64,000 nt of DNA, from NCBI GenBank assembly GCA_030062745.1, contig CP099847.1, forward strand, positions 1,968,304-2,032,303, given 5' to 3'. Position numbers and translations under genes: made by a program. Every line of letters starts with the position of its first letter. Position 1 is the stretch's first letter. This DNA comes from Capitulum mitella (taxonomy: Eukaryota > Arthropoda > Thecostraca > Pollicipedomorpha > Pollicipedidae). This document shows, piece after piece, positions 1 through 62,520 of this stretch. The notes under the pieces were generated by a model. That model saw only the letters and a program-made list of their open reading frames with translations. It was not told where the DNA came from and searched no databases.

Positions 1-181
1 CAGGAACCATTTCCACTCCACCCGGAATCCATGTGGGAACTCTGCACTGGCCTGCGCCAGGGACGCGCAGACAGTTCGAGGAGACGGTGAAAAGACCAAG
101 AAGAAAAAGGAAAGAGGGAAATGGGCAAAGGGAAAGTGGCCGATGAGGTAGAGAAAAAAGGTTGCAAAGACCAAATAACGC

Positions 182-183
182 AC

Positions 184-260
<77 letters not shown>
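182..260. repeat. (GA)n microsatellite
   Basis: An almost pure GA dinucleotide tract of about 39 units with one AA interruption near its left end. The flanks at 61-181 are also purine-rich. Nothing else is visible between the window start and 700. Confidence 0.97.
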
Positions 261-262
<2 letters not shown>

Positions 263-719
263 GAACGAAAATGAAGTGATAACAGAAGTGTACATTGCAC
301 GATCAAGTAACTTGGCATTTGATTGTTGTATTCTTCCTCTGTAATCTAGGTTAACATTCAGTTTGCCATTGCGCATAGCTCATGGGAACCCTTTGCTTTC
401 GGGAACCGGTTACATCCGTTTACATCATGAGCAACTACTCATCATATAACATCAAGTTAGGTACATAAGTCCCTGCATTTAATCTATGTGGAATATAAAA
501 AAACGCCACAAAAAAGTCTATGACGACTTGCGAGTAATGCATCCACCGTTGGCTCATTGTGAGTACATATTCACAAACAAACATTTTGGAAGACATAAGC
601 AACCAACATGAGCTGCGCCTTCACGAAACTTGAAACCTTCATTGACAGAAAAAACTTCATTGTCATTGCAAATAAATTAACAAAACTAAACGTAACTGTA
701 ATTGTAACTACACAGTCAT
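261..719. other. Non-coding stretch, nothing recognised
   Basis: AT-leaning DNA. Short open frames here have no recognisable domain, and I see no repeat or RNA signature. Confidence 0.6.
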
Positions 720-1700
720 ATGCATTCGTCATCGCTGATGAGTCTGCGAAATGCGGTGGTCAGACACGAACCGCAGCTGACGCCTCGACTTCCGTCGCCT
801 GACAAAGCCGCCGCCGGCCTCCGCTCCATGCAGGGTCAGCTCCAGACGACGTTCTTCGCGCGACGCATGACGTCGTCCTTTAGCGCCGTTGCAAGAGACG
901 TTTACGATCGCGGCGGCGGGCCGGGACGGGACTGAACGTCGCCGGCGGGCTCTGTCGACCGGCGGCGGCCGGCGCCGAGCTCGCGCCCAAAACTGCCGCG
1001 ATCCGACGTCGACGGCGGCGGCCGGCGCCCCGGCCTGCGGCGATATGAACCAGCTGGCGGACGGAGTCATCAGAGATATCCGCCTGATGGATCCCCGGCT
1101 GTCCCGGGGGCATTTAGGTCATCAATTCAATTAAAAAGACCGAGCGCCGGACATCGATTTGATGATTTTCCGGGGCCGGCGCGGCTCGTTTCCGAGGCCG
1201 GCGCGGCTCGTTTCCGGGGCCGGCGCGGCTCGTTTTCCGACTGCGGGCCGAGAGGCCGGCGGCGCGAGACGATCAGACGACCCCCTCCGGCGAGATCAGG
1301 CTCGCGGCAGTCGAGAAGCCAGGCAACGGCTCCGGGCCGGACGGTGGCCGTTCGGCGGCCATGGCGGGCTAATGGCCGGATCGCCGTCTAGAAACGTCAG
1401 ACGGCCGGTTACACTGGCCACATGGCCGCCCGGCAGGCCGCACATGGCGCCGTTACAGGACCGGCCGGCCGTCTACGGTGCCGCAGTGATGTGCCATGAA
1501 TGCCGGCAGCGCCGACGGCGGCGTTTCGTCCAGCCCTCTGAGTCGGTTCGGATGGCAGTTCCAATGACGTCCCAGTCGGACGGCGTTGTTTTTTGCGGTC
1601 GCGAGCCTTGGGGAACGGCGTCAGGACTGAGGCGACGACGACCAACCTGCGACTCTGCATCCTTTTTCCGCGCCGAGTTCTGTCCGATCAAAAATGCATG
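720..1700. other. GC-rich, CpG-rich island 1
   Basis: A strong shift to GC-rich sequence with dense CpG and repeated GCCGGC/CGGCGG words. All open frames in it (the longest is 183 codons, 1159-1710 plus strand) are rich in Arg, Ala, Gly and Pro as expected from composition alone, overlap on both strands and match nothing I know. It lies on the 3' side of the exons of the minus-strand Sidestep-like gene, so it is presumably intronic. A regulatory role is possible but not shown. Confidence 0.6.
1169..1236. repeat. 22-bp tandem repeat, three copies
   Basis: Three consecutive near-identical units, each ending in GGCGCGGCTCGTTT and starting CCGGGG or CCGAGG. Embedded in GC island 1. Confidence 0.9.
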
Positions 1701-1710
1701 GGTAGTCTAG

Positions 1711-3074
1711 CGATCTGACGACTGATACTGTGGAATGTTGCACCACCGCCCTTGAACCTCACTGAGCATACCTCACGATTTTTCGTAACTACAAACATGT
1801 CGTGTAAATTCGTTTGTGCCGTCAAGATGACCATTGAAGTTTGATTAACATGTAGTCTTTGACAGCATATGTTCAAGCACTATGCATTCAACCACAAACC
1901 ACGTGAGCACTGTCTTTTAACAGTACCAAGCAACGAAAGATTTGCAATTTGTCGTCAGTCATTTGCTTTAGCGTTGCAATTATGCGTACATCGGAATTAT
2001 GATCATAAGTATGTTGCGGTAGGTATGACGACACACGACACCAAAAAGTGATGAAGGTAATGTTTAAAAGAACATAACGAAAGTGCAGTATAGAAAGGGA
2101 TAAAAGAGAAACCATCGGATTAATCCGTGATACGATCGGATTTATAACTCGTTAACAGAATGATTTATATCAATTTTTCAATGTTTGCCGTTAAGTCCTT
2201 CAAAAGTTTGCAGAAGTAGATATGAGACTAAGCCGCTGTTGTCCCATTACATGTGAAACAAAGAATGTGGAGTGTTAAATACAAACACAAAAATGCTGTC
2301 AGAAAACAAACCAAAAGTGCCAAAAGCGGCTTAAATATTCTCCGCTGATTAGATATAGCCTTTGCAATGTCTGAATAGATGTGAACTACATAATCGGCAA
2401 TGCAGTCATTTGAAACAAACGTTATTTCCGGCATACATCATCAAAACGTTTTATCTAAGCTACATTCTTGGGTGCTCATCCGTTAAAAAAGTGAACTGGA
2501 TTACCCGCCTCTCCTTATAAACAAGGAATTTAGCCTAGTCATGGCAAAAATAAAATACCAAATAATACAAAACCCGTCCACCAGGGTGCAGGTAACACCG
2601 ATTCATTTGATATGCGAAGGTAAACGGTTCCGCGGGCTCGGATGATAGACCATGGTTCCAGCCAAGAAGAGGGATAGGACGCCGTTAACCCTGAGGAAGA
2701 TGGAATATTTTACCATCGCATCAGCATTTCATTGGGGTCAATGTTGCAGAAAACGCTCTCCGGGCTTGGTGTCGGCAATGCACTTACCCGGAGCCGAGCT
2801 TTAGCGAAGGTGGAACGGTACTTTACGGCGATAGAAAACCCGATTGCGCTGCGTTCGGGGTAAAAGCAGGCATGTCAGTCAACGTAGACGAAGCTTATGG
2901 GACGTTGTTCCGGCAATGGGTAATTGATCCAAGAAGACCTTCGTCTTGGAGGTGTCCGTCCTAAATCAGCATGGCTTTGATCGGGCCCAGCCGCAGATTA
3001 ACAGCCGAGCAGTGGCGCTGTGCAGTCTCGGCCTGATTCGCAGTGTTTGCCTCTCCCCTACGCCAGACGGAGAA
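1711..3074. other. Non-coding stretch, nothing recognised
   Basis: Mixed-composition DNA with no domain-bearing frame, no tandem repeat and no RNA gene that I can see. I looked on the minus strand for a second Ig-domain exon of the Sidestep-like gene and found none. Confidence 0.55.
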
Positions 3075-3600
3075 ATCCCCAGTGATCAGTGTTTCATTTA
3101 TGCAAATGGGCCGGCAAACTCGTTCATTTAAGACCGGGCAGCCTGACGTGGGCCGACTGCGTCATTCCCATTCAGCGGGCGGCGGTCTCCGCCCACCGAC
3201 ACCTCGTCGGGCTTTGGACTCTGGCAGCGTGCCCCACGCCGCCGCCGCAGCCCGCCCGTCAGCCCCTCTTGGGCACGTGCGCCGGCCGGGACGCCGTCGC
3301 CAGGTGCCGTTCTAGCTGAGCCGGCCGATCCCGGGCGTCGTGCCGCATGAATACGGCCCCCATTAGGCGGCCGCCTCTTCATCCGGGCGCCGACCGGCCA
3401 TTGCAGGCCCCGGAGCGGGCCGCGGCCGCTTCCCTATTCTGCGCGGCGTCGCGGGGCGCGCGCTAACGGCCGCGGCCAGCCCGCCGCCGCCCCCGCCTCC
3501 GGCGCAGCGCCGCCTCGGGCCTGCTGGGACGGCCCGGCTGCGCTCCGCCGGCGGACAGCTCAGGGCGGGCCAGCCAGGACAGGGCACCAGCGGACGTGCG
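3075..3600. other. GC-rich island 2 with an octamer motif at its edge
   Basis: The GC-rich block is 3130-3600. At its left edge the POU-type octamer ATGCAAAT sits at 3100-3107 in an AT-rich pocket, followed by TCATTTAAGACC. The open frames are composition-driven. Candidate regulatory element by composition and motif only. Confidence 0.45.
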
Positions 3601-4348
3601 TCTGTAGTGATAAGGCCGAACCAACGGCTGGGTCGGTCTGGAGACTTTTGTAGCGCTGTGTTCTGATGGTGGAAAAGAGGAGCGGAAACCGAAAATGACG
3701 ACGCTGGGATAAATTCACCCTGAAAACGGCGTTGATCCAGTATCGGGGTTAGTGGGACAGTCACAGTCAATGCCATATATCATTGCACAAATATGTGTTG
3801 TTAAAACAAGTTTTAAAGCAACGTTCTGTTTTTCCAGACGCATCAGAACTTTCAGAATATTCAAGAACATTGGTTCACAAGTAGTTACTACACCAAAGCC
3901 CCCTTTGCTTAGCAGTTTCACAAGCCGCGTATAATATTCCAAAATCTGCGCAGTGTCGCCGTTAGCCTAAAAGTAAGACCAGCAGGATGGGAAATTTGCC
4001 GGTCGCAGGGCGGTTAACTGTGGAAACCACGCCCAAGAAACTGCCGCAGTGCTGAAGCACCTCCTAAATCCTGCGACGGTTCGGGCCTGAGCACGCCTGG
4101 GCGGTCAGCGCGGCACCGTAAAGACCGGCTCAGAAAGTGGCGACCACGGCTGGCTGCGCCTGAAAGCTGATGCATGCATATGCTGTCAGACGTAGTGTGG
4201 CTAGACAGGATATTCGATTATGCCGCCTGTCTTCAACCGTTAAGATGCTGGTGTCCTCGATGTTGTTTTGTGACGTGTGTGACCACTGCCAGGCATGTGT
4301 TTTGGTCAACTTCGTCCTGAGATGACAGGATTCTGAGTATCTCACCCT
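3601..4348. other. Presumed intron of the Sidestep-like gene, nothing recognised
   Basis: Sequence downstream (minus sense) of exon 3 and of its donor-side minisatellite. No further exon of the gene is recognisable here. Confidence 0.5.
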
Positions 4349-4700
4349 TCGTTCTCATAAACGACAGGTTTTCGCGAACCTCTCGTCTGACAGTGAGACT
4401 GTGAGGTTCTGCCCCATAACGGTGAGACTGCGGGCCTCTCGCCTACAACGGTGATATAATGAGCCTCTTGCTTGCAACAGTGAGATTGCTAGCCTTTTCC
4501 ATGACGGCGACAAAACGAGGTTCTCATCTATGACAGTGAAATTCTGGGGCTATCACCTACAGTGGTGAAATAGCGAAATAGTCATGGTCTGCCTGCCATG
4601 ACCATGAGACTGTGAGACTCTCACCTACAAAGGCAAAAAAGCGAGGTTCTCTCCCACGGCGGTGAGACTGCGAGGTCCTCACCTATAACGGTGAGATTGA
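4349..4700 (-). repeat. 29-bp minisatellite grown from the exon 3 splice donor
   Basis: About twelve diverged units on a strict 29-bp register: the conserved GGTGAG-like word on the plus strand recurs near 4421, 4450, 4506, 4535, 4603, 4632, 4661 and 4690, with one unit longer by about 10 bp and one shorter by 2 bp. The right-hand unit is part of the gene: in minus sense it supplies the last codons of exon 3 (encoding NLTVI) and the donor ATAG|GTGAGG. Two further units (near 4562 and 4625) still carry an intact AG|GTGA donor core; others have lost the GT. The array therefore repeats an exon-intron junction into the intron. Confidence 0.88.
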
Positions 4701-4861
4701 CCCGGGCGTTGAGCGTCGGCGAAGTCCGGAAGTCGGCTCTGCATCGGTAGACGCCCTCGTCGCCCTCCTCCACGTCCTTGATCTTCAGCACGGGCGACTT
4801 GGGCCTTGGGTCGAACTCCGACCTTTGTCCCAGTGAGTCCTCGTTGGCCCAGTGCGTGCCT
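4683..4861 (-). CDS. Sidestep-family protein, exon 3: second half of the first Ig domain
   Basis: The exon is 179 nt: 1 nt completing a codon split with exon 2, 59 codons, then 1 nt. It encodes GTHWANEDSLG, then SPVLKIKDVEEGDEGVYRCR, ending in VNLTVI. The D-E-G-V-Y-R-C motif gives the conserved Asp, Gly, Tyr and second disulfide Cys of an Ig domain (Cys128 counted from the first Met). The exact shape HW..ED..G....F followed by YRC(R)xDFRxSPTxN and VNLTVI is diagnostic of the first domain of the arthropod Sidestep cell-surface proteins, which act as ligands for Beaten-path receptors in motor axon guidance. Splice sites: acceptor CAACTAG|A, donor ATAG|GTGAGG. N143 in NLT is a possible N-glycosylation site. 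The donor is the first unit of a 29-bp minisatellite. Later Ig, fibronectin and transmembrane exons must lie left of the window. A paralogue number cannot be assigned. Confidence 0.92.
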
Positions 4862-5374
4862 CTAGTTGATTTACGACCGCGGATGTCGTAACTGGAAACA
4901 GGAGGAGACAGCCGCGTCGTTTGCTGACATGAAGTGTCTCAGACAGGCAGCATAAAGACGGCATGAGTAAACGAGTTGGTAATACGGGAGCTCCCACGTT
5001 TTTCCGAGTTCACTCATCGCCCGCGGCACAAAATCGAGACAAAATGTGTTGAAAGCCTCTTTCCCAGAAATGATGAGTGGAAGCGAGATAGTGTATCACT
5101 TTTGCCTAACCAGAACTTGAATGGATATTTTCGCGGCGAATGCAAACAAAGCTCTACAACCATGCGCTGAGAAAACAAGAGCGCGAAACTACTCTAAGTT
5201 TTATGCTAACAGAGCGAAAGCACACGCACGCATGCATGTTTTTTTCATGCACCTGGTTTGGCTTAGCATGGATTTTGATCTCTAAGTCACCGTAGCAAAC
5301 CATTCTGGTCAAGTCTAAATAAACACTTTCAAACTAAGCATCTCACTGCGCAGCTCTGCACTGGCCGGACTGAC
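4862..5374 (-). other. Intron 2 of the Sidestep-like gene
   Basis: A 513-nt intron joining exons 2 and 3, donor ACAG|GTCAGT and acceptor CAACTAG|A. The codon split 2+1 gives Arg88. The polypyrimidine tract at the 3' end is weak. No other feature is seen. Confidence 0.88.
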
Positions 5375-5507
5375 CTGTAGAAGGGGGCGCCGGTGTTGTC
5401 CTTGTACCACAGCACCAGTCTCATGACGTCCCGGGAGGCGTCCGGATCCACGTGACAAGGCAGCTCCGCCTCACCGCCAGTTACTGCCGTCACCGGGGTC
5501 ACCTGGC
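5375..5507 (-). CDS. Sidestep-family protein, exon 2: first half of the first Ig domain
   Basis: The exon is 133 nt: 2 nt completing the Gly codon begun in exon 1, 43 codons, then 2 nt. It encodes QVTPVTAVTGGEAELPC, then LVLWYKDNTGAPFY. The ordered TAVxGGxAxLPC (first disulfide Cys, Cys61) and VLWYKD (core Trp77) are the standard A', B and C strands of Sidestep domain 1. Acceptor CTGTGGCAG|GC follows a C/T-rich stretch; donor ACAG|GTCAGT. Phases agree on both sides (exon 1 ends +1, exon 3 starts +1). Compared with family members, the stretch after PxY, usually SxDARGR or similar before HW, is missing and replaced by a single Arg across the exon junction. The first 10 bases of the exon and the acceptor are repeated upstream in a 43-bp minisatellite. 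An in-frame stop follows in the intron, as expected. Confidence 0.9.
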
Positions 5508-5952
5508 CTGCCACAGGAGGACGGACAGGGTCAGTTGGAGGTCACCTGGCCTGCCAGAGGGGGACGGACAGGGTTAGTTGGAGGCCACTTGACCTGCCAG
5601 AGTAGGACGGACAGGGTCGGTTGGAAGTCACCTAACCTGTCAGAGGACAGGCGAGGTCATTTGGGGGCATCTCACCTGATAGAGGAGGAGGGACAGGATT
5701 AGTAAGAGGTAACTTGAGCCATTATAGGAGTAAGAGGGGCAGGGCAGTAAGAGGTCAGCTGACCTGTTGGACGATGGACGAAGTCAGCTGGGGGCATTTG
5801 ACCTGATGGAGGAGAAGGGACAGGATCAGTCGGGGGTCACCTGAACTGTGATGGAGAAGGGAGATGGGCAGTAAGAGGTCATCTGACCTCCTGGAGGAGG
5901 ACAAACAGGGTCAGCTGCAGGTCACCTGAAATGTCGGAAAATGGACGGGGCC
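5498..5952 (-). repeat. 43-bp minisatellite grown from the exon 2 splice acceptor
   Basis: About ten and a half units, the first four on an exact 43-bp register (starts 5498, 5541, 5584, 5627), later ones more diverged and slightly variable in length. In minus sense each unit carries a C/T-rich run, an AG and a copy of the start of exon 2. The unit next to the exon is functional: its GGCAG is the acceptor and its GCCAGGTGAC is the start of the exon. At least five more distal units keep a pyrimidine-rich CAG or AG at the same place, so intron 1 ends in a row of acceptor-like sites. Confidence 0.9.
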
Positions 5953-6269
5953 AGATGAAGCTAAAATAGTTTTTTAAGATGTCCTTAAACTGCGGAAAGT
6001 ATTTCCTCCGCCGTTGATTACATACTATGATGTCAGTCGTTTCGGTCGACATTGGATTGCATGGGCGTTTAGCAAAATCGTCCACATCTTTGCCATAGAT
6101 GCAAAAATTGCATTTATCAGTGATAAGGAGCCTGTACAGTCGTACTAAAATGGTACCACTTGCTATGAAAAGGCCCCCAAGTGGACAGAGCAAGACGAAT
6201 GGATATGTGGGCCAGATGGCGCGTCATTACCTAAAGCCAGGTTTATAAACATGATAATTTTGCAGTTCA
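5953..6269. other. Spacer between minisatellite and piggyBac-like element
   Basis: An open minus-strand frame of 104 codons covers 5879-6193, but it has no domain I recognise and its start lies over the minisatellite. Nothing else seen. Confidence 0.5.
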
Positions 6270-7490
6270 TTAACCCGCCCTCGACTGGGGGGGGGGGCGG
6301 TTGACCGACCCCTGAGGTTTTCCCGAGATTGCAAGAGAACAAAAAAACGAAGCGCCACGAAACTCTGAGTACCTTTTGCTTGATTATCTTTACATCTTGT
6401 ATCAAATTTTTTACTTCAGGTCAAGTCAGGTGTCTGACCTAGGTCAGGTCAAATGGGCCTGTGTCTAAAAGAGATTAGCGTCCTGCAACGTTTTTGGTTA
6501 ACATGATATGATAATAAAACTTTTATGGGTTGACAATTTTAAAAAATGCAACAGATCTGCTATCTCGGATTTTTCGGAACTTGCCGGGTCATTGATCTAA
6601 AGTTAAGCTCGTTTTCAACACATGTCGTTTTTTTTGAAAATTGACGGAATGTGTTACAAAAACCTCAATGTGGGAAAATGCAGACATCCAGTTGCCGTCA
6701 ATGAACAAAGTTTCAATGACCTACGACCACTGACCTGAGGTCAGGCCACGAATAACCGTCATGAGCCAAAATGCACTGCCATCAGAATCGACGATGAACG
6801 ACTCAGGTCGGGTAGAAAATAGTGGAACTGACTCGCACAACCGTGAATCATACCAAAAAGTTAAAAAAGTTTCAAAAATCGCGTATTTTGGAAATAAAGA
6901 AGCCCTCGCGAATGAAGTTCCAACAATTGTGTGGATTTATAACCAACTACTGAAATTTTCAACATTAAAGCACGAGAAAGCATCACAAGAACCATTGGGA
7001 TCAAGAAACAACACTTGGAAAGGCTTATTTCGCGAAAACAAAGGGACGCTAAAATTAGTTCCCGTTAATTCCATTCGCATTCGGCTACGGCGCCCGCCGT
7101 GCAGCGGTGCGAAAATCGCAGTGTCTTTAACTCACCGTTTCCATGTATATATTGAACAAATCAGAAAAATTAGACGTGCATCGGCATCTGTGGACTTTTA
7201 CCTGTTCGCTGGTGCCTTTACCTAGACTTTATTAGTCACAGCCTTGAGATCCAGGCCGTTTCTCGGTCTAATGCAGTCGGCTATGAGAAAACATATATGG
7301 GGAGTATATGGCTTACGTATTATTCGAAACTAAAAAATGGGGTCAGTCTTGAGTTTTATTCGTCACAAGCTTTCCAACGGTGTACTTATTTTTATCGTGC
7401 GGCCAACTGTTCGTGAGTTAGAGGAGGGCCGTCAACCCCCCCCCCTAGTCGGGCGTGCATGGCGCTGACGTCCATTCAGACGCGGGTTAA
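6270..7490 (+). mobile_element. piggyBac-like non-autonomous DNA transposon, copy 1
   Basis: The body is 6274-7486 (1,213 bp), flanked by TTAA at 6270-6273 and 7487-7490. The ends begin CCCGC and close GCGGG. A subterminal inverted motif GACTGGGGGGGGG followed by GTTGAC is present just inside the left end and, inverted, about 28 bp further in on the right, giving the asymmetric termini typical of piggyBac-type elements. A second alignable copy lies at 58911-60130. No transposase is recognisable. The longest frame (6761-7225, 154 codons) is not conserved as an open frame in copy 2, so it is probably chance. The interior is rich in TGACCT/AGGTCA words. Inserted in intron 1 of the Sidestep-like gene. 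Confidence 0.85.
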
Positions 7491-10400
7491 GTCCACTTCA
7501 GAATTCGCGTCAGTCTAGGAAATATGGCAACTAAATAACGTAATGGGAACGTAATTAATGTAAAAGGAATGTAGGTGCACATAAAACGAAAGATTCACGA
7601 AGCAATTCAACAGAAGTTTCCATTGGTTTGATGGACAAGGAGGTAACAATGCCAGTTTTCATCAAGCCATAAATTCTGCAAATAGACACTCTTATTGAGC
7701 GATGTATTAACTGCATGAAATTCACAAGTGTCTGTATGTATGCTGTAATGTCAGCTTGTTCCGAGTGTAATGTACGGCCGCTAAGGGAAAGTAACCACTG
7801 TTGGCCAATGTTCACTTTCTCTTCAAAACAAAGCACGACTACAGTCAACTATAAAATGTAATGATTCGGATAGCTGGCTGAGTAGAGACAGCTACTCCAA
7901 TCTCTCTCGATTTCCATTTATATGTAGCTGGTAGAGATAACTCATAGTTTGCATGTTTGAGTGGCCCGTAAATTCCCGGCATGGCCTGGATCATGATGGG
8001 TGATTCCTTACGGCAGTGATTTACACGGGAAGGAAACGCCGAGCTTCCACTACCAAAGACAGTGCCGGAGAGTTAGGAGGTCTCGCTGGGAGACGGCGTA
8101 TGAAGATTTAAACCATTTTTAAACTTTGCTCGGAAATCAACATCATTGTTTCATTTACCCGGTTTACATGGGCAGCAGTAATTCGAATTTACAACGTAAA
8201 CGGTGTGCTATCGCAACTGATGACCAATGTAAACGCCCTTTTATCATCCGTCAACTTCGGATTTAACCCGGAAGGAAACCTCTTCCCTTTTATATTATAA
8301 TCTCTGTCTGTTAGATTACCTTACCTCAGAAAATTACCTCGGAAAGGAAGGATTACTGGGATCTAAACGGATTTCATTCCAATTCACCAAGCTAGTCAGA
8401 AATCCTTTCCGTAATATACGATGGTGCTCATGCAATGTGATTATATAATTCACCTGCGAAGGAGTTTATTTTATTTTGCACCTGTGGAGTTTGCAACATT
8501 TGCAACAAATGGCCACGCAAGCGATTAAGATAAAATCTTCGTGTGATATATCTCGTGCAGGAATGCGAGTTGTATGTTGTTGTATGTTGTAAGTACGTTG
8601 GTTCGCCGACGCGCAAATTGTGATCGAGTGTAAAACAGCACAAAAAGTTTGCTGAGGCAATTCGTTGAGAATCGAGCTGATGCGGGGAATAAAAGAGTGC
8701 TATGGAAAAGGGCGGAGAAAAAGGAAACGGACGTTTCGAGCTGGCAGTTGTCCCATGCTACTGAAGAAAGCACAGGAGCGGGCCGCGTCTCCCGCTTCCA
8801 GATGTAGACATGAGCGTTATCATGGTGTCTCCAGAACTCAGTCAGCAGCGGCGCCCAGTGCCAGTGCTTTCCCTGCCAGTGGTTAAAGCCGAGCATTGAA
8901 CGAACGACAGCGCCCAGCCCAAGGCCGTGTCCAGCCTGACCAACAATTGGGGCTGTCTGTAGACGGGAAGGCTGACCCCAATGCTGCTTGTCACAAACCT
9001 GGATATAACGGCGTCTGCAAGCGGCGGGCGGCAAAAGACGCCGAGGAACGTTGTCTGGCTGCTGGCTGTTTACCGGGAGGTCGCCGCTACCACTTTCCAG
9101 CATCAGTCACCGATAGCGTGGCCCATGCCATGAACATTGTGGGGGCCATTTGGATCCAAAAGTATGCCTCGTATCCACTGAGTCCTTCTTCCTGTATCCA
9201 ATGTATCTGTATCCACTCTTCAAGTCGGCATAACCATGTCGTCTTGAAGAGAGGTCAATGAGGTCAATGAAATTCGGTGTGATATGTCAACACAATGACT
9301 GTGCGTTCCGACACCATGAAATTCAGCACGAATGCGATGTAGTGTTCTGCTACGCTAATGGTGTGGTGTTATTTTACCGCTGTCGAAACATATCAAAGTT
9401 AAGCTAGTGTAACCAGCCTATAAAACTAACGTCCTCAAACATATATGTTCTGCCTGGGCAAGCTTCGTTTTACGTAGTGGTGTACAAATTATTCGGCCAT
9501 TCCCACACGCCTTAGTCACAAGGGCAACATGACGCGCGGTAAAACGAAGTGCAGCATGTCTGGATGGTGGAGACGCCCTGCTTCAGTATGCCCTTTCTCC
9601 TCAACCTGCATGCTTATGAGGCTCATGAGTAAACGGTAGAATAGCCCAAGACGGACTTCATACAAAGTCTCTCTCGGGGAAACGTATTTTACAAGTGGTT
9701 CATTTATTACAGCTATCAGAGATATATCAGCTATCGTTCGGCAGAGGAAGGTCATCACGTGACAGCAGCGTGAAGTGCGTGATACAGACGAAATGATGAG
9801 AAATCCATTTCCGCTTCGATTTCAGCCATGCGTTCATCGCCAAGTAACTGCGATCGTAATTCGAATTACCCTTGTGAGCGGTTCCACAGAACGGAGCGGG
9901 GTACCGAGTTCGACCCGTTCTTGGTTCGCGTTTACTCCGAACGTTCATGTAAACCGGGCAATTGCCATAATACTGGGATGACATTGCCAATGGTGCCGCT
10001 ATGAAACCATGTCCAAGAACCCATGAAAGGTTGCCTGATCACCAGTAATAGATATCAGTGTTCTATTATTAATAGGCACATACATTCATGAATGGATGTT
10101 AACCAAGTCATATCGATAAATGTTGTCACGAAGCACACAATTCTGCAGCTTCTTCGGACATGTCACCGAGCACAGGCCCTCTGAGGTTGGTGTTGTGGCG
10201 AGTTCGGATCACTGTGTCCTTTCTTATTAGGTACGGAAACTGGCCGCTGCTACAAACGACCACTTGAGTTTCCCAACTGGAGCGAGACAATGGGGAAAAG
10301 GACGGACAGCGAGTGGAAATAGCGTCATAAAACATTTCGGACCGAAAAGGTTGGCTTGGTGTGTAAAATGTCGAGGCCGAAAGAGCACATGTGTCCCCTG

Positions 10401-32819: not shown

Positions 32820-33791
32820 TTAAATAATGGCACGACGTGGGAACTGTCACACCCTTCGTAGAAACTGCGTCCGTCAATTCGGACAGCTCCGAGGGGCGGA
32901 TGCAATCGTCACAGCTCGGGGCCCAGTGTCGGCAGCTGGAACCACAGACCATCCGAAATTGGCAAAAGCACGTAGTCCGCAGCTGGTGGGAGATGGTCTC
33001 TGTTTGGCCAAAACGGGGAAGCCGAGACTGGCCGCTGCCACCGCGCCACCGTCCAAGGATACCCAGACAGAGCTCATGACCTTTGGCGCGTCACAGAGCG
33101 AGTCCCTGGAGCTTCGCCGCAACAGTGGTCAGACGTGCTGACCTTTACTGTGGCGCGGAACAAAACAACAAAGCTTCGCTGCGAAACTGAACGGGACGTG
33201 GTCTGTATGAAAGCGGACGTGTCTGTTTGAAGATGATTAAGTTTGGAACACCAATATGACCCGCCTCGGCCTGGTCTCGTCCTTCCCGTCTGATGAAACC
33301 CGGATTCGAACAGCTCGCGAAAAACGCCGAGTTTCAAAGACAAATCAACACTGCACGTACCTCCCTTCTGAAAGCATCTGCCGAGGGCGCAAAACTGCCT
33401 GATTTAACCGCGCACAATCGCACGGGACACATTTGTCCTCCATCGAACACCCGTTTGCGACATCACATGCATGTCATGCACGCCCTCCAAGTTCCAGCGC
33501 ACCAGCCCACCTCCGCACTGTGCACAGTGCGCAGTGCACAGAGCACAGCACGACCCATCACCGCATCGTGGCGACGCTGCGAGGCCCCTCCGTCTGCGGT
33601 CGAACCTCCTCCCGGGGCCGGCTCTGACGGTCATCAATCACAGCCGCGCTCCGAACGGCGCGACGAGCGGGCATTAGAGACGGCCGCTGCTTGACATTCC
33701 GAGCCGCTCGCCTCCATCCCTCGCGGCGGCCGGGGCACGCCGCCGGCGAGGCCGCAATGAAACCGTGATCGCCGCCGGCCGTACCCCGCCA
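32820..33791. other. GC-rich island 12
   Basis: GC-rich blocks at 32.82-33.10 and 33.39-33.79 kb with a short GTGCACAGTGCGCAGTGCAC near-palindrome at about 33520. No gene recognised. Confidence 0.5.
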
Positions 33792-34083
33792 CAGGGTCAC
33801 AGACGGGAGTCTGGTGGGTCTCAGCCGTCTTCACAGGGTCACGGACGGGTGTCTGGTGAATGTCGGCCATCCGCACTGGGTCGCAGACGGGTGTCTGGTG
33901 GGTCTCAGCCATCCATACAGGGCACAGACGGGTGTCTGGTTGGTCTCAGCCGTCCGCACAGGGTCACGGACGGGTGTCTGATGGGTGTCAGCCATCCGCA
34001 CAGGGTCACGGATGGGTGTCTGGTAGGTCTCAGTCATTCACACAGAGTCATAGATGGGTGTCTGGTGGGCCTCGGCCGTCTAA
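33792..34083. repeat. 42-bp minisatellite, seven units
   Basis: Seven consecutive units on a 42-bp register (starts 33792, 33834, 33876 and so on; one unit is 1 bp short), each containing GACGGGTGTCTGGTGGG or a close variant. Because 42 is a multiple of three, long stretches stay open on both strands and would encode 14-residue repeats (HRVTDGCLVGLS-like, plus). The single-base slip changes the frame within the array, which argues against a protein-coding role. Degenerate relatives continue to about 34330. Confidence 0.92.
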
Positions 34084-34739
34084 GCAGACTTGCAGACCGC
34101 CGCTTCCGGCTGATCAGTCTCAGACGCGTTTCTGCTGTCAATGCGAAATCTGAACCCGGTCTCACCCGTCTGCAATAGCGGATCTCGGCCGTATCAGGAG
34201 TCGGGCCGTCTGCACCGTGTGCCGTCTGCAACCGTCTGCACCGAGTCGGACTCGCATCTGCCTCTGTTGTCTGCGCTGGCGCTGAGACGGGTATCAGCCA
34301 TTTGCACCGAACCGCAGTTTGTTTCGAAGCGAAACACTTCACATCAGTCCGTACCAGAGTGTAATTCAGGCATGATGTTTAGTCTCAGTTTTGGCCGCCT
34401 TTCGCAGCAGACAAGTGACACGTGGATTTTAGTTATTCGGTTACCGAGCCATTAGACTGACATGTTTCGTCGCCAGACGAGATTTCGGTGACCACGTCGG
34501 CAGACAAGAAATAATATTTCATATGTGAAACATCCTCAGTAGCACTTCGCGACCATCGTAGTCATGTATCATTTCTGGAAGATTCTAAATCATACCCGGA
34601 CCTGTGCAGACGATGAAATGGTGTGGCATTTCATTTAAGACCTCATCCCGGGCTGTGTTGGTTTTTCGTCATCAAATCCACCGGCTAGGTAAAAGGCATT
34701 GCGTTAGCCTTCGAACTTTCAAATGCATCACCCTGCGAC
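34084..34739. other. Degenerate repeat tail and plain DNA
   Basis: To about 34330 the DNA is rich in CCGTCTGCA words (CCGTCTGCACCG, GCCGTCTGCAACCG) that look like worn tandem units. The rest shows nothing. Confidence 0.5.
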
Positions 34740-38219: not shown

Positions 38220-38640
38220 CCACCGGATTCCGCAGTCGACGCTCCCCTCTTGGTCGCGCTGAAAGGGTCACTCAACCGGGTCCCCTTCACCGCCGGAAGA
38301 AGGGATCTCTGGGGCCGCGTCAACACAAATGCCGCGATTTCGTGCGCCCGCCGCCGGCAATGCGCGGCGCCGTAAAACTCGGCCGGCACGAACGGCGACC
38401 GCCGCCGATCAGCCGGCCGGAAAGGCGCCTGTTTACGATATCAAATTATAACGGGGGGCCGGCGGCGCGGCGGCCTGTTCTGTTCCGGGCCGGCAATAGT
38501 GGCCCGGGGCCAATAAATAACGCCTGACAACACGGCGGCCGAGCACGCAGGTGGAGTGGCCGAATAGACGCCACTCACGGCAGCGGACGGCCGGCGGCGG
38601 TCCCGGCCGCAGCTGAGTCCCTCCGCCGACCCGACCCGGC
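38220..38640. other. GC-rich island 16
   Basis: CpG-dense block with pockets TGTTTAC (38430-38436) followed by GATATCAAATTATAA, and CCAATAAATAACG (about 38510). It merges into the hexanucleotide-type array to its right. Confidence 0.5.
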
Positions 38641-39600
38641 CCACAGAGACACAGACACAGACAGACATAGGCACAGCCACCGGCACAGGCACAGACACAG
38701 ACACTGGCACAAACACACACACAGACACGGGCACAGACACAGATGAGTTCTCTCCACCGACCCGACCCGGCCCATAGAGACACAGACACAGGCACAGACG
38801 CACACAGACATGGGCACAGATACGGACACGGGTACGGACACAGACACGCGCACAGACACAGGCACAGACACAGGTGAGTTCCTTCCACCGATCTGACCCG
38901 GCCCACAGGGACACAGACACCGACACCGGCACAGACACTAGCACAGACGCAGCTGAGTCCCCTTCCCCGACCCGAACTGGCCCACAGGGACACAGACACC
39001 GACACCGGCACAGACACAAACACAAACACAGACACAGGCACACCTGAGTCCCCTCCACCAATCAGACCCGGCCCACAGAGACACAGGCATCGGGACCGGC
39101 ACAGATACAGACACAGGCACAGACACAGTCACAGACTCGGACACAGACATGGGAGCAGATACAGACACAGAAACAGACACAGTCGCAGGTACAGACACAG
39201 ACATAGACACAGTCGCAGACACATACACAGCTGAGTTTCCTCCGCCGATCCGACCCGGCCCAGAGACGCAGACAATGGCACCGGCACAGATACAGACACA
39301 GACACAGACACTGTCACAGACACACCTAAATCCCCTCCTCCGACCAGAACCGACACAACCGACAGGCCGGCACGAACACAAACGCAGACACAGGCGCCAA
39401 GACTAAACCGACGCAGACACAGAGGCGGATACAGACACAGACACAGACACAGCTGAGTCCCCTTCCCTGACCCAACCGACCCTATCCGATCCGGCTGACA
39501 GACGCCGGGACAGGGCAGACACATACACATTCACAGATACAGACACAGACATCGATACAGACGCAGAATTTGACACCGATGCCGACACCGACACAGTACG
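38612..39600. repeat. Higher-order ACAGAC array with a conserved 40-bp core
   Basis: Blocks of ACAGAC/ACAGGC-type hexamers alternate with a non-repetitive core reading approximately CTGAGTCCCCTCC, CCGACCCGACCCGGCCCA and CAGAGACAC. Eight cores begin near 38612, 38742, 38873, 38952, 39043, 39230, 39323 and 39452. Spacings range from 79 to 187 bp because the hexamer runs vary. Minus-strand frames read as Val-Ser-Val-Pro repeats and are not credible proteins. The core at 38873 reads CAG|GTGAGT, a perfect donor consensus. Confidence 0.9.
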
Positions 39601-40730: not shown

Positions 40731-41359
40731 TTGAAAGTTATGTAAAGCCGAGATGGTAATTGCAAAACTGCATTCCAGGAACCGAGATCAAAGAGCTTTC
40801 TGGCTGCGAAATGCAGATGTGTCGTTGTTGGCAAATTAATCCAATGCGCACAGGCTGTTGAAAATGTTCAATATGTTGTCCACGCCGCGTATAGCTATAG
40901 CTATAGAATGAGGACACGAATATTCGTCCTGTTGTCATTTGCACGTTGGCTTGCTATGCTGTGAGAAAGCTGTCTGAGTAGACATGACCCGACTTAAGGT
41001 CAGACGGGTCCGAAGGGCTTCGAGAGGATGGACCCAGTAATTACTCATCCTCCTGCAAGAAAAAGCTGATTACCCCATTTACCCTGGGATGGCTCACTCC
41101 ACTGGCTCCGTAATAATCCACCTACGCATTTTTTTTTTTTTTTACTTTTACCATGAGGAGAGCGGGAGAATACCAAAATGTGGGATATCGGAAAATGGTT
41201 TTGAAAAGCAAGACCACAAAACCGAGACTAACTGTATGACGCATGCGTGACATTCTCAAAACGCAAATTACAAAGGACTCGGTTTTGTATCAAGCAAGCG
41301 TTTGTGGCAAATCCAAAGTCCGTGTCTCTTAACTTCTCCGCGTAGAAAGATATTCAACC
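40731..41359. other. Non-coding stretch with a T15 run
   Basis: A run of about 15 T lies at 41129-41143, followed by ACTTTTACC. The AGGTCA-type word occurs near 40997. No gene seen. Confidence 0.5.
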
Positions 41360-41732
41360 TGACGTCTTGGCAGAAGCCTGACCGGCAGCGAGTGGGTTCG
41401 CATGTCTGCAGCCGTCGCCAACACAGGAGACTGAACATCTCCAGCGCCAGTCAACCGCCCGCTCGTCAGCTCGCCGGGCTGTCGGAGCCGCCAGCGAGCT
41501 CGGTATGAAGGCGGCACTCTCCGCTGAGCCGACCGCCGCCGTCTGCCTGACTCCGCCGCTGGCGGGTCCGGCTGCGGGCGGCCCTGCGGGCGGCGACCCG
41601 CCGGGACCGGGCAGCGCCGGGTTTGCCGCCAGTGCGCCTGATGGATGGACGGCGTCTGCGAGCCGATGGCTCTGCCGCTCAGATGAACCGGCGGCGCCAG
41701 CAGCGGCGGCGTCCGGCGGCGGAGTCTGCTGG
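41360..41732. other. GC-rich island 18
   Basis: CpG-rich block bordering the minisatellite on its right. Composition-driven frames on both strands. Confidence 0.5.
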
Positions 41733-42110
41733 CACGGCTGAGATGGAGCGGACTCTGACGAAATGGCTGAGACGGAGCAGTGGGCTCTGACGGGCAGCTG
41801 AGGCTGGGGCAAGCTCTAACGGGACGGCTGAGACGGGGCAGCAGACTGGCAGGACGGCTGAGAAGGAGCAAGCTCTGACTGGACGGTTGAGACGGAGCAG
41901 GAGACTCTGACGGGACGGCAGAGACGGAGAAGCAGACTGACGGCACGGCTGAGACGAAGCAAGCTCTGACGGGACGGAGGATGAACAGACAATGCTGGGA
42001 CGGCCGAGACACGGCGAAGTCTGCTGAGGCAACTGGTGTAGAGCAGCCTCCGTGAGAACAACTGAGACGGAGGAGAGCCTGCCAGGACTGCTGTCAGGAT
42101 CTGCCAAGCG
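41733..42110. repeat. 29-32-bp minisatellite
   Basis: About nine units of the type ACGGCTGAGACGGAGCAAGC followed by TCTGACGGG, alternating between 29 and 32 bp, regular to about 41965 and degenerate to about 42110. The minus-strand frame over it (227 codons) reads as Ser/Pro/Val/Arg repeats and is not a credible gene. Confidence 0.88.
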
Positions 42111-48755: not shown

Positions 48756-49063
48756 GAGGGCACTTTTGTGCCATCCGCCACATGTTTCCTTCAGAATCTC
48801 GAGAACGGATCGGAGCTGGTCGCTGCTACTTTGTGGCATTTATGGCAATTGAATAACTCGCCGACTGGCGCGAATAAATCGAAAATGGGCCGGAAATTTT
48901 TGAAGTTTGAAGCACTGGAAGTCAAACAAACATAACGAAAATAACGGTTGTCGCTGACAGGTGGGAACTTTGCGAAATGACTAGGGTTCCACGTAAGATT
49001 ATCGTTTGAACATAATCGGCCGACATCATTTGGGCATAAGTGATGGATGCGCCAATACCAAAG

Positions 49064-49505
49064 CCAGGGTCAGCAAGGGGCAAGGTCATCAAAGGTCAAC
49101 GACAACTATCTTGTGGCCTGGTCCAGATTTGCTTTACAACATGTTGATTTGATGAAATATGCCCTCAAAGACCCTAATAAAACACGCGTGTGCGCATTTG
49201 TACCCTTACATATACCAGAGTCAGTACAGGTCAAGGTAATCAGAGGCCAACGTCAACTATCTTGTTACATGGTCCATATTTGCTTTGTCACACGTTGGTT
49301 TGTATGACATATGCATTCAAAGGCCATAATAAAAGCACTTGTGCGCACATTGATATGTTTATATATGCCATGGTCAGTAGAGGTCAAGGTCACCAAAGTT
49401 CAAGCTGAACTTTTTCGTGGCCTGGTCTAGATTTGCTTCGGAACAAGTCGATTTTACATGAAATGTGCATTCAAAGACCCTAATCAAAGCACGTTTGGCA
49501 CATTG
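49064..49505 (+). repeat. Tandem 151-163-bp repeat inside the left arm, three units
   Basis: Units start near 49064, 49215 and 49378 with CCA-GGTCAG-followed-by-GGTCAAGGTCA and share TGGCCTGGTC and TTTGCTT blocks. The right arm of the palindrome (54377-54540, inverted) has one unit only, so amplification followed the palindrome's formation or the right arm lost copies. Confidence 0.85.
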
Positions 49506-50794
49506 ATACGCATATGTATGTGTGTATATATATGGATGTAATTTTCAGGTTTTATAGCGACCAAATCGTTTGTGTTCATTGTAACGAAGTAACTTTAGCG
49601 CAGACAGTTGACTTACTTTGGGTCAAAAACTTCTCCCGAGGTCGGTGACCTCGCTTCACTTCCTTTGACCTTGCGGAGGTTAGTAAACGTTAGAAGTGGT
49701 GAAATGTACCGAAGTTGGCTATCTTCATTGAAAATACGCCAAAAGGTGCGGTTAGCGCCCTTATTTACACTAAAGCTACACCGATATCCCGTGTTGATCG
49801 GAACCTGAGCTGCAAAAAATGAAAAAAATGATGCCATAAGTCAATGACATGACGTGACCTCGACCCGAAGCCCTCAGTCAAGACGCCAAATAAATGAAAA
49901 TTGTCGTATTCCACGTTTTAACCATTAAATACTCACTCTTTTCCCGTTTCGTTCGCAAAGCCGTATGAAATGGCCTATACAGGTCGAGAAAGTGCCCAAA
50001 GTTGACATTTTCAACCCCATTTGACCTTTAAGATATTGATCTAGGGTCAGGAAAATTGCACACGATGGAAACCCTGATGGCCCTATCCTGTCCATAAGAT
50101 TTCATGTCTCTAGCTCTTTTCGTTTCTGAGATCGAAGGGGGCACTTTTGTGTTTCCTTCCATTGCGCGTTGGCGCGAAACCCCTTTCCACTGCGCGTGTC
50201 AACTGTCATTTCCGTCCACCGCCAATATTTTGTAGTCATTGCAAATCTCATACTTAAGTGTGACAACTGCAATCCGCTGAAAACACAATTTCAGACCTGA
50301 GTTCAGTATTTTATATGGATATGCTTCAACGCAGACCTATTCCGCAGGCAAGCAACAATAAACTACGTTTTCACAAGTGCAGTGGAAGGGTTTTCGCGCT
50401 AACGCGCACTGGAAGGAGGCATTTTTGTGACCCCATCAGATCGCGGAAGCGGAAAGAGCTAGGGACATGAAATTTGAAGGATGGTGTAGGGCCACAAAGA
50501 GTTGCATTATGTGCAGTTTCATGACCCTAGGTCAACATCCCCAAGGTCAAATGGTGTCGAAAACGTCAACTTTGGGCACTTTCTCGGCCCGTTCAGGCTA
50601 TTTCATACTGCTTTTTGAACGGAAGGGGAAAAGGGGGCGTGTTAGAGCGTTAAAACGCGGAATACGACTTAAAGCGTTAAAACGTGGAATACGACGATTT
50701 CCATCCATCTGACGTCTTAAATGGAGATTTCGGGTCGGGGTCAATCAGATCATTGACCTGTGACGTCGCTTTTCGTCTTTGCAGATCAGATTTT

Positions 50795-61769: not shown

Positions 61770-62520
61770 TCTAAGAGCTCTGCATGCTGACCAAAATAAC
61801 TAGCTCGGTCACTTTATCCACTACAGTGACCAGACCACGGAAGAAATCTGCTTCGAATCTTATCAATTCTGCCCAGGTCTCTTTTGGCGGCGTCTCCCCA
61901 GATGACGCAGCCATATGCAAATATGGATCTGGCGTTGCTGAAATAGGCCAGGAGCTCTGCAGCCCCACAGAGCCCGAACTGGGCTGGAAAGTTCGAATGA
62001 GGAGATTAAGGGACCTCGTCGCTTTAGACGCTATGAAATTGATATGATCTCGAAAAGTGAGTATGGATTCAAGAAAGATGCCAAGGTTCCTGATGCGCGT
62101 CACCTGTTCCAGTACTGTGCTGTCTATTGTACCCCTTTTCGAATAGGATTTCGTTTGAGAGCGATGGTGAAGGACTTACACTTTTTCTAATTATCGCCCA
62201 AGATCAGGCAACCAGGAGTGCCCCTCCCTCAGCCCAGAGACGGACAGAACCATACGTTAACAGCAAAGAACATAATGAGCAAGTGGCTGCACTCCCCGCT
62301 AAGAAATGGAAACGAACGTAAACATTTAGATGGGTTAAGTCTGAGTTACCAGTTTGTGGACCCATGTTTTCGACCCATACCCGTTCTCTAGGTCGGCTTG
62401 AAGCAGTAGAATTTCGTGGAATCAGTGACTGTACAAATACTTTTGACGTCGTCCACGAAAAGCAGAAAGCTGGACGAGGGTTGTCCCCAATACTATGGAC
62501 GAATTGGAATGAAGACCTTT
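61770..62520 (-). mobile_element. Non-LTR retrotransposon (LINE, Jockey/CR1-like) reverse transcriptase fragment
   Basis: Minus-strand remains of the palm-to-thumb part of a LINE reverse transcriptase. FVDDVK (62442-62459) is the catalytic Y/FxDD box. About 125 codons further on comes RIRNLGIFLESILTFRDHI followed by IASKATRSLNLLIRTF (about 61990-62100), the standard LGVxLDxxLxFxxHI and KAxxxLxxIxRxF segment after the active site. Then the frame shifts near 61970 and continues as LLAYFSNARSIFAYGCVIWG and DKIRSRF, the usual RxxxxYGxxxW region. The fragment lacks both ends, has at least one frameshift and stops, and is dead. Fingers domain, endonuclease and 3' tail are not seen. Confidence 0.8.

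Follow-up and report, generated by a model that had tools for sequence, protein, structure and literature searches.

Minisatellites that repeat an exon-intron boundary have already been published for amphioxus. The accessible parts of that report describe "mirages", minisatellite-like tandem copies of the boundary in the globin genes BflGb6 and BflGb9 and in Adh3, which lie at 5′ or 3′ junctions and carry AG/GT signals in many, though not all, copies (PMC3087553). RT-PCR suggested that splicing is regular, and length instability was reported (PMC3087553). In lancelet PGBD5, according to the available portions of a second report, imperfect tandem repeats of 60 and 108 bp coincide with or overlap the 5′ and 3′ splice sites; troponin C is cited there as well (PMC3902484). 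Excerpts from two further papers concern tandem duplication of splice-competent sequence, with novel introns or intron positions proposed, in the near intron pairs of Drosophila (PMC2891723) and in the internal tandem repeats of human segmental duplications, which include minisatellite-type repeats at exon-intron boundaries (PMC2812944). The human repeats are the nearest case outside cephalochordates in the literature searched, which held none under the name "mirage" in the texts as far as they were accessible; this is weak evidence, as most subscription journals lay outside the search.

The locus considered here belongs to a gene on the minus strand of a 64-kb window, by which we mean the whole stretch of DNA that was analyzed. 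Its product resembles the axon-guidance protein Sidestep, and the likeness points, tentatively, to a protostome; the first Ig domain of this product is split over exons 2 and 3. A minisatellite with a 43-bp unit occupies the predicted acceptor of exon 2, and another with a 29-bp unit occupies the predicted donor of exon 3 (Table 1). Set against the amphioxus mirages, as far as the accessible text describes them, the resemblance is close in three respects. The repeat unit spans the exon-intron boundary, here at both predicted junctions. The authentic junction is the end unit and the other copies are found outside it, the splice sites of the present gene being predicted. Splice signals recur in many copies, with AG in 8 of 10 acceptor copies here and GT in only 2 of 9 donor copies. 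In contrast, the amphioxus globin mirages have units of 150-160 bp that are 81-100% alike in BflGb6, whereas the present units of 29 and 43 bp are more decayed, and here arrays sit at both outer junctions of a single split domain. Lancelet PGBD5 offers a parallel in that a single gene has tandem repeats at its 5′ and 3′ splice sites, but in the available portions of that report the units are longer, the 108-bp repeat is a triplication, and the animal group is probably a different one (PMC3902484). Unlike the Drosophila near intron pairs and the human repeats, as excerpted, the copies are held here by existing introns, with no sign of a new one. The first Ig domain of Sidestep IV, which like the domain encoded here ends in NLTVI, represents a likeness of the host gene family only.

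The earlier note had placed one split Ig domain between the two arrays, and the spliced frame agrees: the joined translation of exons 2 and 3 is an unbroken V-set domain (Pfam V-set, 5.4e-12). Among solved structures, its best match is Drosophila Sidestep IV (PDB 9nq2; 1.3e-27), followed by Sidestep VI and VII, and the best non-Sidestep chain reaches only 1.1e-05. The alignment to the first Ig domain of Sidestep IV covers 111 residues, 47 of them identical, and because it crosses the join of exons 2 and 3, both inner splice sites are supported. NLTVI, the last residues of the domain, coincides with the predicted exon 3 donor; the corresponding end in Sidestep VI is NLEVV. The start of exon 2 is less sure than the other exon ends. 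We prefer 5507 to 5502, because exons 2 and 3 then total 342 nt with phase 1-1, the usual arrangement for Ig domains. Further Ig domains and a membrane part would be expected downstream in a Sidestep protein, on the side where the window ends; scanning positions 1-9000 of the minus strand with Pfam gave no other Ig match, but since exon 3 was caught there and exon 2 was not, scans of this kind can overlook short exons.

Table 1. Positions of the predicted exons, the intron between them and the two boundary arrays (numbered from the first base of the window)
Feature	Positions	Strand	Description
43-bp array	5497-5948	-	By unit alignment, ten copies in the intron, the outermost of them incomplete, plus the junction unit at exon 2
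Junction unit, 43-bp array	5497-5536	-	Branch-like CTGAC and a pyrimidine tract, then CAG with the 11 bases of exon 2 at 5497-5507
Pair of blocks, three units each, in the 43-bp array (period about 127)	5663-5916	-	Tandem Repeats Finder period 127 at 5662-5889
Exon 2, first half of the Sidestep-like Ig domain	5375-5507	-	Predicted acceptor GGCAG/GCCAG; alternative start 5502 (CCAG/GTG)
Intron 2, 483 bp, interrupting the Ig domain	4892-5374	-	GTCAGT...TTTCCAG; homology continues through the joined frame
Exon 3, second half of the Ig domain	4683-4891	-	Ends in NLTVI; predicted donor ATAG/GTGAGG
29-bp degenerate array	4390-4699	-	Junction unit, then copies in the intron after exon 3; a weaker tail may reach 4349
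Junction unit, 29-bp array	4668-4696	-	14 exonic bases (4683-4696), donor and 15 intronic bases

The 43-bp array lies in the upstream intron and ends within the first 11 bases of exon 2, which bears out the claim that it begins at the exon 2 acceptor and the first exonic bases. Tandem Repeats Finder places it at 5497-5929, with 10.2 copies and a score of 242. Read in the direction of the gene, the consensus has the look of a small 3′ splice site, in which branch-like CTGAC and a pyrimidine tract are followed by CAG and the opening bases of exon 2. The acceptor AG is intact in the DNA of 8 of the 10 intronic copies; the alignment column gives 9 of 10, a count made with inserted bases dropped from the rows, and the AG of unit 5749 is actually split by a base. 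Branch-like CTRAY is present in half of the intronic copies (5/10), the pyrimidine fraction lies at 0.75-0.90 across all eleven units, and several units continue from CAG into GT, a juxtaposition that might permit recursive splicing. When a profile is made from the intronic copies alone, the 11 bases at the edge of exon 2 match it better than any of 126,982 other places in the window.

Identity to the junction unit is 0.88 and 0.81 in the two copies nearest the exon and 0.65-0.74 in the remaining eight. The outward decay is modest (Spearman 0.60, two-sided p 0.069, ten copies); on rounded values the same trend is 0.66, with a one-sided permutation p of 0.02. Pairwise identity among the units ranges from 0.55 to 0.88. 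In the middle of the array, duplication of a block of three units (about 127 bp) is suggested by unit pairs 5916/5789 and 5831/5704, which are 0.87 and 0.86 identical; the third pair, 5873/5749, is just 0.63 identical.

The 29-bp array starts in the final 14-17 bases of exon 3 and crosses the donor into the intron. Tandem Repeats Finder did not report it, even with a minimum score of 30. Its period is seen in the intron-only stretch 4362-4679, where identity is 0.509 at lag 29 and 0.438 at lag 58, compared with a highest value of 0.370 over lags 5-159 in 200 dinucleotide shuffles. Of the 29 positions in the junction unit, 25 agree with the consensus of the nine intronic copies, 13 of the 14 exonic ones among them, and the 14 bases at the exon edge fit a profile of the intronic copies only, with no outside position as good (0/127,218). 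The earlier account of an array running from the exon 3 donor and the last codons before it is upheld for the junction unit, which is in register, and is weakly supported for the outer end at 4349, since the aligned units extend to 4390. Mean pairwise identity among the 10 units is 0.57, with gaps counted as differences, and the copies are old or rapidly changing. Outward decay shows no trend among nine copies (Spearman -0.08, p 0.85). The donor GT is retained in 2 of the 9 counted intronic copies and its T in 3 of 9; these column counts were made without the 39-nt unit at 4609, which carries an insertion, and with the outermost donor unit (4398) placed by visual alignment.

In a lag scan of the whole window, the two arrays reach z values of 9.3 (29 bp) and 10.1 (43 bp), and the highest value in 10 shuffled windows is 5.06. 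Three claims made for the pair together hold up. The exon edges are in register with the intronic copies, so that in both arrays the predicted functional splice site forms the end unit. The copies extend on the intron side of the junctions: exon 3 has no repeat signal (0.377; highest shuffle 0.475), and the marginal value in intron 2 at lag 141 (0.344; highest shuffle 0.340) is taken as noise. Finally, the 29-bp and 43-bp unit families have no 9-mer in common, and the rest of the window contains no 15-mer of either, so the arrays most likely arose separately and in place. A common origin of both units, or a set of copies elsewhere in the window, was considered and rejected on these grounds.

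The placement of the arrays can also be set against chance. Scanning the 64 kb at lags of 15-100 gave eight regions, five of which were left after removal of three microsatellites; one of the five, at 38.5 kb, has a strong hexamer period too, and the 153-bp repeat at 49 kb falls outside the scanned lags. Two of the five regions end within 20 bp of the four junctions, which random placement would produce with a chance of about 7e-5, a post hoc figure that takes into account only these four predicted junctions. The register of both exon edges is stronger evidence than these odds.

The earlier note had further described the other minisatellites of the window as far from exons, which was not confirmed, since the Pfam scans covered three of the four other larger arrays and can miss short exons. 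In six frames, these scans gave nothing above cut-offs around 33.0-34.7, 40.7-43.0 and 48.2-50.4 kb, and Rfam gave nothing in the window at gathering scores. Several of these regions have features of their own. An open frame of 166 codons on the plus strand (33678-34178) holds a 42-bp array (33790-34077) whose unit is a multiple of three, and another of 254 codons on the minus strand (41329-42093) runs through a 29/61-bp array at 41734-41977; neither has a Pfam match above cut-off. At 38610-39567, ACACAG-like hexamers make up a long nested array in which higher-order periods of 79-131 bp are also present. The 153-bp period repeat (49063-49509) contains many GGTCA words and has no Pfam match around it, and GGTCA-rich sequence is also found at about 6415-6460. 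The open frame at 61771-62175 on the minus strand resembles part of a LINE reverse transcriptase. Among candidate related loci, 11 viral-contig and 93 prokaryote-genome stretches fitted a search pattern, and none was confirmed.

We consider it likely that two separate tandem duplications, each spanning a junction, seeded the arrays, and that the exon-side copy has been held by selection while the outer copies decayed. One duplication would have occurred at each exon-intron junction, both in the same Sidestep-like Ig domain, and the minisatellites would then have grown outward from the junction into the intron via replication slippage or unequal exchange. A duplication across a junction would keep the protein unchanged only if the exon-adjacent copy is the one that is spliced. 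The copy bordering the coding sequence would be held by selection on both protein and splicing, and the copies beyond it, their splice sites presumably unused, would be free to decay. On the donor side, the exon edge is the likely source of the 29-bp array, because the edge of exon 3 encodes NLTVI, which is common to Drosophila Sidestep IV; these bases most likely predate the array.

The alternative that survives best is that ordinary intronic minisatellites expanded as far as the exon edges and encroached slightly on them, in which case the splice site would be a boundary set by constraint and not the source. Minisatellites in introns are ordinary, and the acceptor side leaves room for such a course: just 11 exonic bases are shared there, coding for residues at or ahead of the point where the Sidestep IV alignment starts, and the 43-bp array could have begun in the intron. 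At the donor, however, an incoming array would need chance to bring it into agreement with exonic bases that match the intronic consensus at 13 of 14 positions and encode NLTVI, and the ending of two of five repeat regions at junctions also speaks against intronic spread, given the post hoc odds of random placement. Spread from the intron is accordingly an unlikely origin for the pair.

Seeding by duplication across the junctions would leave decoy splice sites in the introns, and those upstream of exon 2 would carry a cost. All 13 upstream AGs that are preceded by at least 0.70 pyrimidines in 20 bases, the only decoy acceptors considered, lead to a stop codon, either in the extension or in exon 2, if the intron is assumed to be phase 1; under that assumption, the stops would explain why the coding copy is retained. 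Past the exon 3 donor, the frame remains open for 20 codons and then reaches a stop. A purging of decoy donors was also considered and rejected as not significant, with 4 of 28 neighboring pairs, GT included, kept as poorly as GT or worse.

The same 13 stops would suit repeated splice modules with a function of their own, through which the arrays regulate splicing of the Ig1 exons, for example by factor recruitment or poison extensions. The acceptor AG, preserved in 8 of the 10 intronic copies, and the high pyrimidine content of all eleven units point in the same direction. Against such a function, AG is kept no better than the best other dinucleotides of the acceptor array: 3 of 42 neighboring pairs, AG itself included, reach the AG count, in counts made with inserted bases dropped that carry the same flaw as the 9 of 10 figure, and extra conservation of AG above background was rejected. 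Moreover, CTRAY is missing from half of the intronic acceptor copies and GT from seven of the nine counted donor copies, and pairing between the arrays, as in circular-RNA formation, does not exceed that of shuffled sequences, 20 of 100 of which pair at least as strongly. A regulatory role therefore seems quite improbable. An assembly artefact, whether from collapsed or misjoined haplotypes, is hardly credible: one amphioxus boundary array did look aberrantly assembled in the draft genome, according to the accessible text (PMC3087553), but the copies here are too unlike one another within either array for such an origin.

Amplification of exon ends into introns, with the coding copy kept by selection, was the process that the earlier note had put forward. 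The likely exonic source at the donor and the stops behind decoy AGs favor it; the kind is already known, the same structures being published from amphioxus, and the mechanism is plausible, with its main lines in print in the portions of those reports at hand. Only tentatively can it be extended to a general and recurrent process outside cephalochordates, in which the junction copy would serve as a lasting seed and older copies would decay outward. If that were true, introns would grow longer at their ends and accumulate decoy splice sites. The present locus extends the amphioxus mirages to a Sidestep-like gene, perhaps that of a protostome, in which both outer junctions of one domain are affected. 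Should such arrays prove common in this genome, intron ends could be read as a record of former exon edges, and the lengthening of introns and the tolerance of decoy splice sites would become directly testable questions.
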